Assembly (NCBI RefSeq): GCF_004323735.1
Contig: NZ_CP036455.1
Location: 2,227,101 to 2,291,100 of the forward strand
Direction of reading: 5' to 3'
Length of the DNA: 64,000 nt
DNA from: Streptomonospora litoralis
GTDB taxonomy: Bacteria; Actinomycetota; Actinomycetes; Streptosporangiales; Streptosporangiaceae
Position numbers and translations under genes: made by a program. Below the pieces are notes generated by a model. The model saw only the letters and a program-made list of their open reading frames with translations. It had not been told where the DNA came from and made no database searches. Numbering within the stretch: the first letter of the stretch is position 1; each line of letters starts with the position of its first letter. Positions 46,505-52,147 of the stretch are shown here, in pieces.

Positions 46505-48067
46505 TCAACTTTTCGTGCGTCTCGTGGCTGCTGCGCCTGCCGAGGCCGCCCGCAAAACGGGCATAGACCCCCAAAAGCCCACCCCATCGGGGGGTGCGAC
46601 TCCCCGCGGCCGCGCCCGGGCGCAACGAGCGACGTGTCGTCGCCCCCGGCCCCCGATCCGGCGCACCCCCGAGCCGCGCGAGCACCCGCGACCGCGCCAC
46701 ACCGCGCGGCCGTCCAGCCTGCGCGGGCCCGGCCACAACACGGCGACACCACGTCGGCCAACCGGCGCCGGTATGTCCGGTATGCCGGTCCATCCGGCGA
46801 TGATCGTGAACTTATGGCCGCGGGATGTGCTTTCCTGCGACCATAAGTTCGCGATAGACGGGCCAAGCCGCGCCGACCGGCCTGCGGCGGCCGAACGCCG
46901 CCCCCGCCGCAACCGCCACCGGCGAGCACCCGAACCGACAACCACAGGCCCGGCCCCGCTGCCGCCGTCGATGCTCCTATTTGTCAAGCGGCTTGGGTAT
47001 AGGTGTCGGCGCTGGTGACCGGTTCGCGTGAGGGCTTTGTAGACCTGGCGGGCGACATAGCGCTTGAGGCAGCGGATGATGTCCTTCTTGGTCAGCCCCT
47101 GCTTCAGGCGCCGCTGGACATAGGCGCGGGTGTCGCCATCATGGCGCATCCGGGCGATGACGATCTGATGCAGCACCTTGTTCGCGGCCCGGTCGCCCCC
47201 GCGGTTGAGGCGGTGGCGGTCGCGCCGCCCGGAGGAGGCGGGCACCGGCGCGGTGCCGCACAGGTGGGCGAAGGCGGCCTCGCCGGTGATCCGGTCGGGG
47301 TTGTCGCCGGTGGTCAGCATCAGCTGCGCGGCGGACTGGGGGCCCACGCACACCAGGGCGCGCAGGCCGGGCGCGGCGGTGGCGGTGAGGTGGTCGATGT
47401 GGCGGGCGATTTCGGTGATGCGGCGGGTGAGGTCCTGGTAGTGGCGGGCCAGGGCGGCCAGGCTGTAGCGGGCGGCCGCATCCGGATCGGCCAACTCCGC
47501 CGGGTCGGCCGCGTGGGGCTCCAGGTCGGCGCAGGCTCGGATCAGCCGGGTGGTGCTCAGCCCGCGCAGCAAGGCGCGCAGGTCCTGGCCGGTGGTGGTG
47601 ATCAGCGCGTGGATCTGGTTGATGGTCTGGGTGCGCTGGCCGACCGGCATGGTGCGCAGGTGGTGCAGGGGGCGCAGGGCTCCGGCGGTGCCGGTGCGGT
47701 CCTTGGGTGCGGCCCGGGCGTGGTCGGCCAGGGCGGCGCGGGCGGCGGCGTAGGCGTCCAGGGGGTCGGATTTGCCGTGGCGGCGGCGGGCGGAGCGGTC
47801 GGGCCGGTTGACTTCGAGGGCGGTGTGGCCGGCGGCGGTGAGCCGGCGGGTGAGTTCGGCGCCGTAGGAGCCCGTGCCTTCCATGGCGACGGCGATGGGG
47901 TGGCCGTGGGTGGCGGTCCAGGCGGCGAGGTCGTCGTAGCCGGTGGCGGTGGTGGGGAATTCGCGGTCGGCCAGGGGGCGGCCGAGGTGGTCGATGATCG
48001 CGCAGTGGTGGGTGTCGGTGTGGGTGTCCACGCCGGCGATGACATCGCCGGGTCGGGGGTCCATCAT
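46505..48067 (-). CDS. IS110-family transposase, reading through into repeat DNA
   Basis: A DEDD-type transposase/recombinase. The RuvC-like domain starts DVIAGVDTHTDTHHCAIID (Asp14) with EGTGSYGAELTRRL and KSDPLDAYAAARAALADHAR. The Transposase_20 domain contains VGPQSAAQLMLTTGDNPDRI, HLCGTAPVPASSGRR with the nucleophilic Ser, and CLKRYVARQVYKAL. The IS-encoded part ends around residue 361 (LYPSRLTNR). No stop occurs at the IS end, so the frame continues for about 160 residues through the flanking repeat to 46505, an evident insertion artefact. The ATG at 48067 is the natural start. Confidence 0.88.
   Translation of the reverse strand: MMDPRPGDVIAGVDTHTDTHHCAIIDHLGRPLADREFPTTATGYDDLAAWTATHGHPIAVAMEGTGSYGAELTRRLTAAGHTALEVNRPDRSARRRHGKSDPLDAYAAARAALADHARAAPKDRTGTAGALRPLHHLRTMPVGQRTQTINQIHALITTTGQDLRALLRGLSTTRLIRACADLEPHAADPAELADPDAAARYSLAALARHYQDLTRRITEIARHIDHLTATAAPGLRALVCVGPQSAAQLMLTTGDNPDRITGEAAFAHLCGTAPVPASSGRRDRHRLNRGGDRAANKVLHQIVIARMRHDGDTRAYVQRRLKQGLTKKDIIRCLKRYVARQVYKALTRTGHQRRHLYPSRLTNRSIDGGSGAGPVVVGSGARRWRLRRGRRSAAAGRSARLGPSIANLWSQESTSRGHKFTIIAGWTGIPDIPAPVGRRGVAVLWPGPRRLDGRAVWRGRGCSRGSGVRRIGGRGRRHVARCARARPRGVAPPDGVGFWGSMPVLRAASAGAAATRRTKS
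46803..46855. repeat. Conserved inverted repeat ATCGTGAACTTATGG in copy 2
   Basis: Arms at 46803-46817 and 46841-46855 with one mismatch (CCATAAGTTCGCGAT) and the same 23-base spacer as in copy 1, showing that the structure is maintained. Confidence 0.75.
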
Positions 48068-48240
48068 GGGGGTGGCCTTTCCCGTGTGGTGCGGAGAGGG
48101 GCGATGCGGGCCGGGCAGGTCCTGGACAGGACAGTGATGGGCAAGCGTGCGCTTGCAGGCTCCTATGAGGTCACAGGTTCCTGTCCGGCTCGTTGGTCTC
48201 TGGGGCGCAGCGACAGATCGACGGAAGGACACGGGCTTGT
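46970..48240 (-). mobile_element. IS110-family insertion sequence
   Basis: The element encodes one DEDD/Ser transposase and inserts into the composite repeat. The left boundary is marked by the change from repeat sequence (GCTGCCGCCGTC) to GATGCTCCTATTTGTCAAG at about 46970. The octamer GCTCCTAT recurs at 48160-48167. Host repeat sequence resumes by 48240 at the latest, so the right end lies between 48160 and 48240. No terminal inverted repeats are obvious, as usual for this family. The non-coding stretch upstream of the transposase start (48068-48240) is where IS110-group elements encode their guide (bridge) RNA. Confidence 0.75.
48068..48240 (-). ncRNA. Candidate IS110 guide (bridge) RNA region
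   Basis: The non-coding end upstream of the transposase contains a perfect hairpin GCAAGCG-tg-CGCTTGC (48142-48157) and further short inverted segments (GTCCTGGACAGGAC at 48119-48132). In IS110-group elements such as IS621 this position encodes a structured RNA with target- and donor-recognition loops. Assignment here is by position and structure only; the loops cannot be defined by eye. Confidence 0.45.
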
Positions 48241-48315
48241 GGGCCCGGTCGGCCGCCGCTGGGGTCAGCTCCGTCCCAGAGACCACTCAATCAATCACTG
48301 CCGCCGCTTTTCCGT

Positions 48316-48564
48316 AAGACCACCCGCCGCCCGGCTGATCAGCAAGGCCGCACTGCAGACCCGAGCCGCCCCTCCGTCGCCCGCCGCTACCGGCGGGCAC
48401 CCGGCCCGATGACCGCGGGCCCGGCCGTCCGCCGCCCTCGCTGCGGCTTTTCAGTGAAGACCACCCGCCGCCCGGCTGATCAGCAAGGCCGCACTGCAGA
48501 CCCGAGCCGCCCCTCCGTCGCCCGCCGCTACCGGCGGGCACCCGGCCCGATGACCGCGGGCCCC
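48316..48564. repeat. Tandem duplication of the GC-rich module (141-bp period)
   Basis: 48316-48423 and 48457-48564 are identical over 108 bases, beginning AAGACCACCCGCCGCCCGGC, with a 33-base divergent segment between them. Perfect identity in otherwise degenerate repeats means the duplication is recent. Confidence 0.85.
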
Positions 48565-48713
48565 GGCCCGCCACCGTCCCCGATGCCCGCTGCTCCCCAT
48601 CCTTCAGCCCGCCGGCACGGGGCAAGGCCAGGGCAAGTCGGCGTAGCGGATCCGAGCCGCACGGCCCGGACGCCCATGGGAGCCGGACCGATCCAGCACT
48701 TCTTGAACACGGC

Positions 48714-49316
48714 TTAGGTCGGCGGCGGGCCGTCGCCCGGTTCCTCCTGGTAGGAGTAGCGCTGCTCCTTCCACGGGTCGGCGCGGTTGTGGTAGCCGCG
48801 CTCCTCCCAGAAGCCGCGGCGGTCCGCGGTGAGGTACTCCACCGCGCGCACCCACTTCACGCTCTTCCAGCCGTACAGGTGCGGCACCACCAGGCGCACC
48901 GGATGGCCGTACTCGGGGGCGAGGCGCTCACCGTCGCGGTGGGTGGCCAGCAGCACGTCCGGGGCCAGGAAGTCGTCCAGGCGCATGTTGGCGCTGTAGC
49001 CGTACTCCGCCCAGACCATGACGTGGGTGGCGCCCGGCGCGGGCGGCACCAGCTCCACCAGCGTCTCGGTGGAGACGCCGCTCCAGTGCACGCCGGGCAG
49101 CGTGAAACGTGTCACGCAGTGGAAGTCGGAGACGGAGTCGATGCGCGGGAGCGCGTCGAACTCGGGCCAGGTCCACCGGAACTCGCCCAGCGACTCGGTG
49201 AAGCCGTAGACCCGCAGATCCCATCTGTGCGCACGGAACCGCGGAACGGGGCCGTAGTGCAGGGCGGGCCGGTCGCGCGGCACGTGCTGTCCCGGCGGAA
49301 GCGGCTGATCCGACAA
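48714..49316 (-). CDS. Sulfite oxidase-like molybdopterin-binding protein (YedY/SuoX fold)
   Basis: A 200-aa oxidoreductase molybdopterin-binding domain protein. The moco-ligand Cys lies in SDFHCVTRF, followed by WSGVSTETLVELV, the APDVLLATHRDGE region and HPVRLVVPHLYGWKSVKWVRAVE, typical of cytoplasmic YedY/MsrP-like catalytic subunits. No Tat signal or haem domain is seen, so substrate and partner are unknown. TTG at 49316 is chosen because GGAGAGCGA directly precedes it. The last codons and the TAA stop lie in the terminal repeat of the composite element. Confidence 0.87.
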   Translation of the reverse strand: MSDQPLPPGQHVPRDRPALHYGPVPRFRAHRWDLRVYGFTESLGEFRWTWPEFDALPRIDSVSDFHCVTRFTLPGVHWSGVSTETLVELVPPAPGATHVMVWAEYGYSANMRLDDFLAPDVLLATHRDGERLAPEYGHPVRLVVPHLYGWKSVKWVRAVEYLTADRRGFWEERGYHNRADPWKEQRYSYQEEPGDGPPPT

Positions 49317-49414
49317 TCGCTCTCCTTCGTGCGCCTCACACCGACATCCTGCCAGTGACCCGCTGTCGGCACGCGCCGCGCCCCTCGCCCGTACGCCCGG
49401 CCCGGACGATGCGC

Positions 49415-49420
49415 TATAGT
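49415..49420 (+). promoter_or_regulatory. -10 element of the DAHP synthase leader transcript
   Basis: TATAGT ends seven bases before the leader-peptide ATG at 49428, so transcription should begin at or next to that ATG and the leader would be translated from a leaderless RNA. No convincing -35 is seen. Confidence 0.6.
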
Positions 49421-49427
49421 CGGTGCC

Positions 49428-49502
49428 ATGCAGCAGAGCTTTTGGCGCTTTTATGGCTACCGGCCCACGGCTAGGACGGTCGCCCGCCAAGCGCTGCGCT
49501 GA
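49428..49502 (+). CDS. Aromatic-codon leader peptide of DAHP synthase
   Basis: A 24-codon ORF MQQSFWRFYGYRPTARTVAR (then QALR) with Phe, Trp, Phe, Tyr and Tyr clustered within codons 5-11. These are the three end products of the pathway whose first enzyme is encoded downstream. It ends 16 bases before a strong intrinsic terminator (49518-49554). Ribosome stalling at scarce aromatic aminoacyl-tRNA would change downstream RNA folding and allow read-through into the DAHP synthase gene. The gene is too short for normal gene finders. Confidence 0.8.
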   Translation: MQQSFWRFYGYRPTARTVARQALR

Positions 49503-49517
49503 CACGGACGACTTGAG

Positions 49518-49554
49518 GAGCCCCGGGCCGGGAAAGGCCCGGGGCTCTTCTGCT
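49518..49554 (+). terminator. Attenuator terminator before DAHP synthase
   Basis: A perfect 12-bp stem GAGCCCCGGGCC / GGCCCGGGGCTC with loop GGGAAA, followed by TTCTGCT. It stands between the leader peptide and the structural gene, so termination here would silence the enzyme when aromatic amino acids are plentiful. Confidence 0.8.
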
Positions 49555-49656
49555 GCCCGGCCCGAACCGCCGCCCGGCTCCCCTCGGCCCGTCCGGCCGA
49601 CAACCTCCAGCCGAGTCCGCCGAACGGACCCGCGAACAGCCGAAGGGACAACGCAC

Positions 49657-50697
49657 ATGGTCATCGTCATGGGGCCGGGAGCCACCCGCGAACATATCGA
49701 CAACCTCGTCGACCTCGTCGCCGCAGCGGGGGGCGAGGCTTACGTGACCCGCGGTGTGAGCCGCACGATCATCGGTTTGGTCGGCGACGTGCGCCAGTTC
49801 GAGACCCTGGACCTGCGCGCGATGCCGGGCGTCAGCGACGTCCTGCGCATCAGCGTCCCCTACAAGCTCGTCAGCAGTGAGAACCAGCCCACCCGCTCCG
49901 AGGTCAGCGTCGCCGGCGTGCCGATCGGCGGCGACCACATGACCGTCGTCGCCGGGCCCTGCGCCGTCGAGACCCCCGAGCAGACGCTGGCCGCCGCGCA
50001 GATGGCCAAGGCGGCCGGGGCGGCGCTGCTGCGCGGCGGCGCCTACAAGCCGCGCACCTCCCCCTACGCCTTCCAGGGGCTCGGCGAGACCGGCCTGAAG
50101 ATCCTCTCCGACGTGCGCACCGAGACCGGCCTGCCGATCGTCACCGAGGTGGTCGACGCCGCCGACGTCGACCTGGTGGCCGGCTACGCCGACATGCTGC
50201 AGATCGGCACCCGCAACATGCAGAACTTCGCGCTGCTGCAGGCGGCGGGGGAGGCCGGGCGCCCGGTGCTGCTCAAGCGCGGCATGAACGCCACCATCGA
50301 GGAGTGGCTGATGGCCGCCGAGTACATCGCCCAGCGCGGCAACCTCGACATCGTGCTCTGCGAGCGCGGCATCCGCACCTTCGAGAAGGCCACCCGCAAC
50401 ACCCTGGACATCAGCGCCGTCCCGGTGGCCCAGAGCCTGTCGCACCTGCCGGTGATCGTCGACCCCTCGCACTCGGGCGGCAAGCGCGAGCTGGTGCTGC
50501 CGTTGTCGCGGGCGGCGATCGCGGCCGGGGCCGACGGCGTCATCGTCGATGTGCACCCCACCCCCGAGACCGCGCTGTGCGACGGCCCGCAGGCGCTGGT
50601 CGGCGGCGACATCGCCGAGCTGGCCCGCGTCGCCGAGACCCTGCCGCCGCTGCTGGGCCGCACCCTCACCGCCGCGCCGCAGCCGGCCGGGGTCTGA
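49657..50697 (+). CDS. aroF: 3-deoxy-7-phosphoheptulonate (DAHP) synthase, type I-beta
   Basis: A 346-aa enzyme condensing phosphoenolpyruvate and erythrose 4-phosphate, the first step of the shikimate pathway. Residues 1-68 form the ferredoxin-like regulatory domain of the Thermotoga-type enzyme (MVIVMGPGATREHIDNLVDLVAAAGGEA), followed by the barrel with VAGPCAVET, GGAYKPRTSPYAFQGLG, the GTRNMQNF and KRGMNATIEEW segments, CERGIRTFEKATRNTLD and DPSHSGGKREL. In the family the N-terminal domain mediates Tyr/Phe feedback inhibition. ATG at 49657 with GAAGGGA upstream. Together with the leader peptide it suggests both attenuation and allosteric control. Confidence 0.95.
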   Translation: MVIVMGPGATREHIDNLVDLVAAAGGEAYVTRGVSRTIIGLVGDVRQFETLDLRAMPGVSDVLRISVPYKLVSSENQPTRSEVSVAGVPIGGDHMTVVAGPCAVETPEQTLAAAQMAKAAGAALLRGGAYKPRTSPYAFQGLGETGLKILSDVRTETGLPIVTEVVDAADVDLVAGYADMLQIGTRNMQNFALLQAAGEAGRPVLLKRGMNATIEEWLMAAEYIAQRGNLDIVLCERGIRTFEKATRNTLDISAVPVAQSLSHLPVIVDPSHSGGKRELVLPLSRAAIAAGADGVIVDVHPTPETALCDGPQALVGGDIAELARVAETLPPLLGRTLTAAPQPAGV

Positions 50698-50752
50698 TCC
50701 GAGCAGGCGCCTCCACGCCACCGGATGTCCCGGGCCGCCGAGCGGGGCGGCG

Positions 50753-50798
50753 CCGTGCGAAGCCCGCCGCTGTTCGCTCGGCGGCGCGCTTCGCACGG
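50753..50798. terminator. Bidirectional terminator aroF/thiI
   Basis: Arms of 18 bases beginning CCGTGCGAAGC with one mismatch, around a 10-base loop, between the convergent DAHP synthase and thiI genes. Confidence 0.65.
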
Positions 50799-50872
50799 GG
50801 CTTCGAGCCGTGTCCCGTTGCCGCGACCCGGGGGCTCCTCGGTCCGGAGCGGGTGTTGCGGCCCGCGCCCGC

Positions 50873-52147
50873 TCAGACCTTCGCGGGAGCGGCGTCGCCC
50901 AGGAAGCTGGGCCGGTGCAGTTGCTTGGCGGTGAGCAGATGCTCGGCCAGCTCCTCGGCGTCGAGCCGCTTCTCGATCACCCGCAGGTCGGGGATCTGGG
51001 CGGCGGTCTCGACCTGGCGCGGCGTGAGCAGCGTGCAGCAGTCCTCGTCGGGCAGTTCGGAGATCGACAGCGTGCCGATCCGCCGCGCCTGGTCCATGAT
51101 CTCGCTCTTGTCCATGCCGATCAGCGGACGCAGGATCGGCGCGTCCACCGCGTCGTCCAGCGCGGTCAGATTGGTCATGGTCTGGCTGGAGACCTGGCCC
51201 AGCGCGTCGCCGGTGATCAGCGCCTCGGCGCCGAGGTCGTCGGCCAGCGCCTCGGCGGTCTTGAGCATCAGCCGGCGCTGGGCGATGATCTGCAGCCGCT
51301 CCGCCCCCGAGGTCTTCAGCTGCTGCTGCGCCTTGCCGAAGGGGACGACGAACAGCCGCGAGCCCACCTGGAACCGGTCGAGCTGGCGCACCAGGCTGTA
51401 GGCCTTGTAGATCGACTCCGGGCCGGTGAAGGGCATGCCGGAGAAGTGCAGGAAGTCGACCTTGAGGCCGCGGCGCATCATCCGGTGCGCGGCCACGGGG
51501 GAGTCGATGCCGCCCGACATCAGCACCAGCGCGCGCCCGCTCATGCCCACCGGCAGGCCGCCCGGGCCGGGGATGCCGTCGGTGAAGACGAACACCTCGT
51601 CCTTGTCGACCTCGATGGAGACCGTGTTCTGCGGGTGCTTGAGATCGACCGGCAGACTGTGCGCCTGTTGGACGGCGGAGCCCACGTGCCGGGCGATCTG
51701 CGAGGAGGTCAGCGGGAACCGCTTGTCGCGGCGGCGGGGCCGCACGGCGAAGGAGCCCGTGCGGTCGGCCAGCGCCTGCACGGCGACCGCGGTGACGGTG
51801 TCGACGTCCTTGGGCACGCGGCGCACCAGGTGCACCCACACCACGCCCATGACGTTCTTCATGCGCTCGGCGAGCTCGGCGACCTCGATGTCGGAGGCCT
51901 CGGGCATGCGCACGAAGACGACCCCCGAGCCGCGCCGGGACAGCTTGATCGGGCTCAGACCGCGCGCCGCCGCGCGGATGTTGTTGTGCAGGCGGCGCTC
52001 GAACAGGCTGCGGTTACTGCCCTTGAGCACGATCTCGCCGAGCTTCATCAGCACGCACAGCTCGTGGGGTCCGGACGCGGACCGCTCCTGGACGGCGGTC
52101 TCGACCTCGCGTCCCCCGACGGCCTCGGGTTCGGACATGACGGCCAT
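50873..52147 (-). CDS. thiI: tRNA 4-thiouridine synthase ThiI
   Basis: A 424-aa enzyme of tRNA U8 thiolation (and in some bacteria thiamine thiazole sulfur transfer). An N-terminal ferredoxin-like domain (HELCVLMKLGEIVLKGSNRSLFE), a THUMP domain (about 85-185) and a PP-loop ATPase domain with LVLMSGGIDSPVAAHRMMRRG are clear. A C-terminal rhodanese domain is absent, as in the short ThiI form; DEDCCTLLTP carries cysteines near the end of the catalytic domain. The ATG at 52147 has GGGAG nine bases upstream, so the 42-residue extension is rejected. The gene is not part of the thiOSG operon at 58-60 kb. Confidence 0.93.
   Translation of the reverse strand: MAVMSEPEAVGGREVETAVQERSASGPHELCVLMKLGEIVLKGSNRSLFERRLHNNIRAAARGLSPIKLSRRGSGVVFVRMPEASDIEVAELAERMKNVMGVVWVHLVRRVPKDVDTVTAVAVQALADRTGSFAVRPRRRDKRFPLTSSQIARHVGSAVQQAHSLPVDLKHPQNTVSIEVDKDEVFVFTDGIPGPGGLPVGMSGRALVLMSGGIDSPVAAHRMMRRGLKVDFLHFSGMPFTGPESIYKAYSLVRQLDRFQVGSRLFVVPFGKAQQQLKTSGAERLQIIAQRRLMLKTAEALADDLGAEALITGDALGQVSSQTMTNLTALDDAVDAPILRPLIGMDKSEIMDQARRIGTLSISELPDEDCCTLLTPRQVETAAQIPDLRVIEKRLDAEELAEHLLTAKQLHRPSFLGDAAPAKV

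Follow-up and report, generated by a model that had tools for sequence, protein, structure and literature searches.

Introduction

In the trp-type attenuators of E. coli, such as trpL and pheL, a leader peptide is translated ahead of mutually exclusive antiterminator and terminator structures, and the position of the ribosome decides between them. Multivalent leaders are also known, as in the E. coli thr and ilvGMEDA operons, and the statement in an earlier reading of this DNA from its letters alone (here, the sequence-only reading) that classical attenuation senses one amino acid was therefore too strong. In C. glutamicum, aroF encodes a type I-alpha rather than a type I-beta enzyme, and its attenuator with the aroR leader was reportedly described by Neshat et al. 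in 2014 in J Biotechnol.

According to the available portions of PMC4046766 and of the review PMC11802643, aroF of C. glutamicum has an attenuator with a Phe-Tyr-Phe leader, aroR, and the review adds that this leader answers Phe limitation and not Tyr; trpL and pheL are named there as trp-type attenuators (PMC11802643). An RNA-seq study of S. lividans (PMC8079986) reports, in its accessible sections, the leaders leuL1, leuL2, trpL1, trpL2, alaL, ilvL, metL and thrL, most of them described as leaderless; neither DAHP synthase nor chorismate mutase has a leader among these eight. In the part of the text at hand, Seliverstov et al. 2005 (PMC1262725) report attenuation of trp, leu, ilv and further genes, and for Phe and Tyr operons they state that no attenuator was observed. 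The terms aroF, DAHP and chorismate were absent from the text of Naville and Gautheret 2010 (PMC2965389) in a term search.

Here we describe a leader in a 64-kb stretch of DNA, called the window throughout, that on sequence comparison and RNA folding very probably controls the entry enzyme of the shikimate pathway by ribosome-mediated transcription attenuation. It resembles the C. glutamicum aroR leader, as described in the sources available to us, in that it would be a ribosome-mediated attenuator with aromatic codons before an actinobacterial DAHP synthase gene; unlike the window leader, aroR has Phe-Tyr-Phe, a comparison made with its published description alone. With the E. coli trp-type attenuators it shares the leader peptide, the mutually exclusive antiterminator and terminator and the ribosome position as the switch, and it differs from them in a putatively leaderless start without a Shine-Dalgarno sequence, in apparently reading three amino acids, and in the place of its predicted antiterminator strand, which follows the sensing codons directly within the leader ORF. 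As in the E. coli thr and ilvGMEDA leaders, one leader would read several amino acids of a pathway, these being branched-chain or Thr and Ile there and aromatic here. Short peptides, the leaderless type and downstream hairpins are features in common with the S. lividans leaders as they appear in the available text. The mechanism is known in kind, and the leader RNA family itself is apparently undescribed, no description of it having been found in the open-licence literature or in Rfam. The sequence-only reading, by which this exact leader was not known to have been described, holds to that extent and is qualified by the C. glutamicum aroF attenuator (aroR) and the leaderless S. lividans leaders that the accessible portions of those papers report.

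Results and Discussion

The DAHP synthase gene and its leader

The gene at 49657..50697 (plus strand) encodes a type I-beta DAHP synthase of 346 residues, with a PF00793 catalytic domain, a ferredoxin-like PF18152 domain at its N-terminus (residues 1-66) and a TIGR01361 score above the cut-off; the type and the presence of an N-terminal domain had both been recognized in the sequence-only reading. The closest solved chains are 1rzm, 3pg9 and 1vr6 (phospho-2-dehydro-3-deoxyheptonate aldolase), which we take to be the Thermotoga maritima enzyme that is feedback-inhibited by Tyr. A search of the window's genome (G000, 5.8 Mb) with the window DAHP synthase returned a single match, the gene itself, and a type II DAHP synthase is present elsewhere in that genome. 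The type II gene (L209/L210, G000:C1:4287310-4288440) lies near one for a chorismate-binding enzyme (L215, 4289677), perhaps in a secondary-metabolite cluster. On the minus strand of the window, a long ORF at 46505-48286 that by eye resembles an IS110-type transposase adjoins a duplicated stretch (48287-48625).

Upstream of the DAHP synthase gene, a -10 box TATAGT (49415-49420) is followed by the 7-nt spacer CGGTGCC and an ATG at 49428, which opens the plus-strand leader ORF MQQSFWRFYGYRPTARTVARQALR (49428..49502) of 24 codons and a TGA. The -10 box stands directly 5' of the start codon and leaves no room for a Shine-Dalgarno sequence, the arrangement of a leaderless mRNA, and transcription would be expected to start at the start codon itself. 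The putative promoter (49410..49420, plus strand) also includes TGCGC, at positions -18 to -14, where the commonest base is kept in 0.53-0.73 of the 118 leaders defined below; no -35 is recognizable in the window and none stands out across the 118. The aromatic codons of the leader are 5 (TTT), 6 (TGG), 8 (TTT), 9 (TAT) and 11 (TAC), so that a short and presumably translated ORF with codons for the products of the pathway lies between promoter and gene.

A hairpin with a perfect 12-bp core (49518-49529 / 49536-49547) and a GGGAAA loop follows. Through A-U, G-U and G-C pairs its stem reaches 15 bp (49515-49529 / 49536-49550), with an onset 12 nt 3' of the leader stop, and folding, a stem search and covariation identify 49515..49550 (plus strand) as a predicted intrinsic terminator between the leader ORF and the gene. 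The fold of 49428-49560 has a z-score of -4.55 against 200 dinucleotide shuffles. The U tail of the window terminator is weak, the sequence 3' of the stem being U-poor (UGCUGCCCGG after CUCUUC), and neither a strict terminator scan nor a sigma-70 scan gave a report at the window leader. These observations bear out the sequence-only reading in its TATAGT seven bases before the ATG of a 24-codon ORF, its Phe, Trp, Phe, Tyr and Tyr in codons 5-11 and its 12-bp stem with GGGAAA loop; the sixteen bases that it placed between stop and stem are in fact 15.

Conservation and linkage to the enzyme gene

We compared 208 regions upstream of relatives of the enzyme, drawn from 80 named contigs, the 48 best-scoring loci of genome searches and 80 further stretches; three of the 208 (L063, L130 and L131) have at most 120 nt of upstream DNA. 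A leader was counted where an ORF starting with ATG, GTG or TTG had at least three aromatic residues in seven codons and a TANNNT 4-9 nt before its start. Such leaderless-type, aromatic-rich ORFs were found in 140 of the 208 regions: 67 of the 80 named contigs, all 47 further loci of the family (best-scoring only) and 26 of 81 regions from other families of the class. The enzyme had matches in 118 family genomes, and the best 30 of these 118 loci were inspected for the ORF; the search of the class matched 126 genomes, 86 of them outside the family, and upstream DNA came from 81 of the 86 (80 plus L127), the other five all being members of family f19. Named contigs and numbered genomes share some species, and identical sequences were merged while near-identical ones were kept separate.

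The peptides of relatives include MQRNFWRFYGYRPDTPVACKALR in Nocardiopsis, MRNVVYFFWFDQPGRLVCQTLR in Actinomadura, MRTAFWFWYGDGPVSRTVRLQMLR in Planobispora and MQTVTYFFGYPPGAPGPAAA in Nocardioides. Start codons were ATG in 95 leaders and GTG in 45. The frequency of TANNNT is no independent evidence, because it was a selection criterion; the spacing from -10 to start was 6-8 nt in 139 of the 140, within a search that allowed 4-9. The 140 leaders reduced to 131 distinct ones, of which 118 had a qualifying stem (at least 9 bp, beginning 8-46 nt from the first base of the stop codon) and were used for folding and codon statistics; nine of the 13 lacking such a stem were from outside the family. 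A terminator core like GCCCCGGG recurs among the 118, and the outer pairs of the terminator covary: in 50 distinct rows of the Nocardiopsaceae type, 7 of 14 pairs show changes in both partners.

We built a covariance model, R1, on 52 Nocardiopsaceae-type leaders. Of 61 family genomes, 55 have a match to it, never more than one, and 54 of the 60 genera sampled carry a match. All 55 matches lie directly upstream of a DAHP synthase match, at a gap of 19-113 nt. Among the six family genomes in which R1 found nothing, G057 has no enzyme relative, G020, G036 and G040 have only distant ones, and G021 and G059 have a close relative yet no R1 match. The recurrence of an F/W/Y ORF with a terminator across relatives, which the sequence-only reading had proposed to look for in Nocardiopsaceae and Streptomyces, is borne out except that the Streptomyces-like genomes hold no type I-beta enzyme at E <= 1e-80. 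The pattern that it named as contrary to attenuation, a kept terminator beside peptide codons that are not conserved, did not occur among the relatives compared.

No such leader was found in 68 of the 208 regions, including those of Actinophytocola (L072, L083), Streptosporangium canum (L077) and the sampled members of f19. Two candidates were rejected as leaders: 'GWYGAFGF' in L086, L134 and L151, which looks like the tail of the upstream gene, and 'FRCWRNY' in L173 and L205, which is absent from sister genomes. Family f19, which we guess to be Pseudonocardiaceae-like, has its DAHP synthase without a leader (L147, L153, L159, L163, L168, L173, L180, L181 and L205), and these nine regions have a TGACCAA-YGTCTT stretch 5' of the gene that is possibly an operator.

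A predicted antiterminator strand within the leader ORF

To follow the RNA left free by a ribosome, we folded it from the ribosome front edge (placed by choice 16 nt from the first P-site base) to just before the terminator 3' arm. In the window fold, the terminator 5' arm and the first loop bases are paired to codons 11-16: on the plus strand, P1 (CCGGCCC, 49460-49466) and P1b (GGCT, 49469-49472), together the antiterminator strand 49460..49472 seen in folding, duplexes and alignment, take as partners GGGCCGG and AGCC at 49525-49531 and 49519-49522 in the folding. This pairing encloses helix P2, formed by codons 17-20 (49478..49486) and the post-stop spacer (49505..49513) and likewise found by folding, duplexes and alignment, and a small hairpin at the leader stop, P3 (AGCG-CUG-CGCU, 49490..49500), found by folding and alignment; all are on the plus strand. 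Similar long-range pairing was present in most of the 26 leader folds inspected.

Duplex energies across the 118 leaders point the same way. A leader paired with its own 5' arm at -20.9 vs -18.3 with the arms of others (z -11.5; 93 of 118), and P2 was matched to its own spacer (z -10.0; 99 of 118), z-scores that treat related sequences as independent and ignore phylogeny; for the 3' arm the 118 leaders showed no own-arm preference (z -1.2). As clade means for P1, own-clade arms were preferred only by the Nocardiopsaceae and Streptosporangiaceae types. Nocardiopsaceae-type arms served Thermomonosporaceae-type leaders as well as or better than their own (-20.7 vs -20.0) and leaders of other types at -21.1 vs -16.9, and foreign P2 spacers paired equally well or better in the Nocardiopsaceae and Thermomonosporaceae types. 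A comparison of the two big clades by eye shows joint changes in leader and 5' arm (GGACCC/GGGTCC vs CGGCCC/GGGCC).

Covariation of the antiterminator in alignment A1 was weak, at 1 of 23 pairs in 20 rows; its covarying-pair count and number of pair types were no higher than in shuffles, and its score was above them; roughly half of the rows retain P1b. Alignment A3 (23 of the 25 leaders of its type, the near-copies L050 and L125 being omitted) showed no covariation excess over shuffles, and in A4 3 of 12 antiterminator pairs covary. Based on folding and duplex energies, with weak within-clade covariation and mixed clade specificity, the antiterminator is predicted to use the terminator 5' arm and to be mutually exclusive with the terminator. 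The sequence-only reading had not named an antiterminator; one is present computationally, and it is well placed relative to the aromatic codons.

Position and identity of the probable sensing codons

We simulated ribosomes stalled along the 118 leaders and computed the probability of the 5' arm being held by upstream RNA. This was 0.68-0.69 with the A site at codons 4-7, 0.63 at codon 8 and 0.48 at codon 9, fell to about 0.18-0.19 at codon 12, stood at 0.27-0.29 at codons 14-18 and was 0.06 at the stop. The ribosome-free value was 0.59, and an untranslated leader is therefore not predicted to terminate well. The difference between codons 6 and 12 was 0.490 in real leaders vs 0.025 in dinucleotide shuffles (10 for each leader), and 114 of the 118 exceeded their own shuffles. 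This contrast owes more to codon 12 (0.191 real vs 0.532 shuffled) than to codon 6, where real leaders exceeded dinucleotide shuffles moderately (0.681 vs 0.561; 102 of 118; 0.557 for the shuffles of the contrast) and synonymous recodings barely (0.681 vs 0.634; 79 of 118); dinucleotide shuffles are the control for the contrast, and the recoding control covers codon 6. In the window leader the values were 0.60-0.61 at codons 3-9, 0.49 at codon 10 and 0.24 at codon 11, rising to 0.33 at codon 14 and 0.40 at codon 15 and reaching 0.00 at the stop. The profile is not monotone in either the 118 leaders or the window. In this folding simulation, a stall at the sensing codons frees the antiterminator and a ribosome at the stop does not.

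We defined the permissive part of a leader as extending down to 0.6 of the maximum, a cut-off of our own, with which it ended at a median of codon 9 of 23. It held 441 of the 547 aromatic codons of the 118 leaders. F, W and Y were all present in 106 of the 118 peptides, Trp being absent in 12, and 73 of the 118 had all three kinds within the permissive part. Based on the stall profile of the window, F5, W6, F8 and Y9 (the plus-strand stretch F5 TTT, W6 TGG, R7, F8 TTT, Y9 TAT at 49440..49454) are therefore the likely sensors, and Tyr11, which lies at the antiterminator helix, probably does not sense. The claim of the sequence-only reading that the leader reads all three aromatic amino acids accordingly fits the simulation at four codons, which stand at freeing positions, and fails at Y11, which is outside them.

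Codon choice follows the same division. TTT makes up 155 of the 229 Phe codons of the 118 leaders vs 0 of 336 in the enzyme genes of 62 named loci, and TAT 115 of the 191 Tyr codons vs 3 of 292; four window genes contain TTT at 0 of 39 and TAT at 0 of 23. In all 50 Nocardiopsaceae-type leaders F8 is TTT and the non-sensing Y11 is TAC; 49 of them have TAT for Y9. These choices at the sensing codons may reflect slow decoding under starvation, or alternatively the avoidance of RNA structure.

The proposed switch

Taken with the conservation of the leader and its terminator, the antiterminator and the stall simulation support the attenuator proposed in the sequence-only reading, which we consider would work as follows. 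Transcription would begin with the A of the leader ATG or a neighboring base, giving a leaderless RNA onto which a ribosome would load. With Phe-, Trp- and Tyr-tRNA charged, the ribosome would reach the stop codon and cover the end of the leader and the spacer, breaking P2 and P3 and keeping codons 11-16 off the terminator 5' arm. The GCCCCGGGCC hairpin could then form, and transcription would end before the DAHP synthase gene. Were any one aromatic tRNA short, the ribosome would stall in the cell at F5, W6, F8 or Y9, with its front edge upstream of codon 11 or just reaching it. Codons 11-16 would then pair with the terminator 5' arm and the start of the loop (P1 and P1b, around P2 and P3), the terminator hairpin would be blocked, and the DAHP synthase gene would be transcribed.

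Leaders at chorismate mutase and trpE-trpG

A search of 394 genomes of the class with R1 gave matches in 77, of which 40 belong to the family, 34 are Streptomyces-like and three are others. The three others (G128, G240 and G389, outside the family) have the match just before a DAHP synthase. The 34 Streptomyces-like genomes (one genus, f18/g85, 6-11 Mb) matched at E 2.8e-7 to 0.098, and with E as high as 0.098 the weakest of these matches are not significant alone. The type I-beta enzyme had no match at the E threshold given above in any genome of their family, and the related element stands before chorismate mutase instead of DAHP synthase: by tblastn the mutase is downstream in all 34 loci (L246-L265, L297-L310), and the one mutase checked carries PF01817. 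Each of the 34 loci has a leader such as MLTHPTFLFTYGNRPTGCHGRAA with [TC]ANNNT 6-7 nt before its start. The stall profile of the 32 with a stem, two stemless leaders being left out, resembled that of the DAHP synthase leaders, at 0.84-0.88 at codons 4-10, 0.12 at codon 18 and 0.31 at codon 19, computed for real leaders alone, without a shuffle control. Trp occurs in the aromatic cluster of three of the 34 (L251, L265 and L297).

The window's genome also has a chorismate mutase (L266:1471-1761) with a leader, MNRRYRCFRPPAARRTAADS (L266:1282-1344; near G000:C1 2400225), which has TAGAAT 7 nt before its ATG and is followed by a hairpin and TTTTT. We examined the best 30 of the loci from 41 matching family genomes, with two aromatic residues as the search criterion. 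In 12 of the 30 the frame that holds the mutase opens within 300 nt upstream, and 10 of these 12 have a Phe/Tyr leader, the other two being without upstream DNA; L270 has a leader as well. Trp is present in none of these 11 family leader peptides. In 17 of the 30 the mutase is inside a longer frame, and the search for a leader there found none. These 17 are L273, L278-L281, L283, L285-L291 and L293-L296, and several adjoin a weak DAHP-synthase-like match. R1 had no second match in the window's genome and one match per family genome, so the homology of the family chorismate mutase leaders with the DAHP synthase leader is not established. The trpE-trpG fusion gene of the window's genome (from L214:691) has a Trp-Trp leader, MRIAPARTQWWRRF (L214:513-557), with TATGCT 6 nt before its ATG and a GGCCGCC hairpin with a TTTTCG tail.

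Codon content thus follows pathway position, with F, W and Y at the entry, F and Y at the Phe/Tyr branch and W at a Trp-branch gene. We regard it as an evenly balanced question whether a single ancestral attenuator RNA across the class Actinomycetes became attached to non-homologous enzymes, DAHP synthase in Streptosporangiales and others and chorismate mutase in the Streptomyces-like genomes. Its sensing codons would have been retuned to pathway position (Phe, Trp and Tyr at the entry, mostly Phe and Tyr at the Phe/Tyr branch, with a separate Trp-only leader at the Trp-branch gene) and selected as the near-unused TTT and TAT.

Other explanations

A tenable though less probable account keeps the same attenuator but has the cell respond to just one or two of the amino acids, the other aromatic codons being retained by the needs of RNA structure. 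The precedent of C. glutamicum, where in the available text of the review a Phe-Tyr-Phe leader responds to Phe and not to Tyr (PMC11802643), favors it, as do the absence of Trp from the leaders of some relatives and codons 8-12 of the Nocardiopsaceae type, which are almost fixed to the third base and point to an RNA constraint. Set against these, F, W and Y are exchanged for one another from clade to clade, with the aromatic block still in the permissive part, the sensing codons are the otherwise avoided TTT and TAT, and Trp, found in 106 of the 118 DAHP synthase leaders, occurs in 0 of the 11 chorismate mutase leaders of the same family. In the switch proposed above, each of the three amino acids would act alone.

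We think it improbable that the leader ORF feeds ribosomes to the gene by reinitiation or translational coupling, with the hairpin as a pause or mRNA-stability element. Leader genes have been proposed to raise translation (PMC4833913, in the portion available), and the weak U tail of the window would suit a hairpin that is not a terminator; at least five T within 8 nt after the stem were found in only 38 of the 118 leaders. Those 38 U-rich tails nevertheless count against such a role, as does the pairing of the leader with the 5' arm of the terminator and not the 3' arm. Moreover, between the leader and the gene lie a strong hairpin and 106 nt, and the gene has its own Shine-Dalgarno-like motif, GAAGGGA (49642..49648, plus strand).

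Even less probable is a riboswitch-like element controlled by a ligand or protein (a T-box, an aptamer or the site of an RNA-binding protein) in which the ORF is incidental. The conserved RNA structure and third bases would suit one, but none of the Rfam families, among them T-box and known leaders, reached its gathering score in nine loci, and window positions 48600-51200 gave only three sub-threshold chance matches at E <= 10. In addition, the in-frame aromatic codons survive amino-acid swaps and whole-codon gaps inside the ORF, and their position fits the switch point.

That a chance ORF precedes the ordinary terminator of an unrelated small RNA can practically be dismissed, common as short ORFs are in GC-rich DNA, since none of 60 dinucleotide shuffles of the window held a comparable ORF, 140 of the 208 regions carry a leader and all 55 R1 matches of the family stand at the DAHP synthase gene. 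The whole window contains two leaderless-type short ORFs (TANNNT 5-8 nt before ATG or GTG, 8-45 codons), and the leader ORF is the only one with at least three, indeed at least five, aromatic residues in seven codons; the shuffles had 0 ORFs at the level of five and a mean of 0.07 at that of three. This confirms that the leader ORF is beyond chance.

Read as a ribosome-mediated attenuator, the leader has several implications. The use of TTT and TAT in the sensors vs TTC and TAC in the enzymes offers a testable case for codon choice in a starvation sensor, and the leader family suggests a rule that links codon content to pathway position. The leader would also provide a handle on shikimate-pathway flux in actinomycetes that make antibiotics derived from aromatic precursors.
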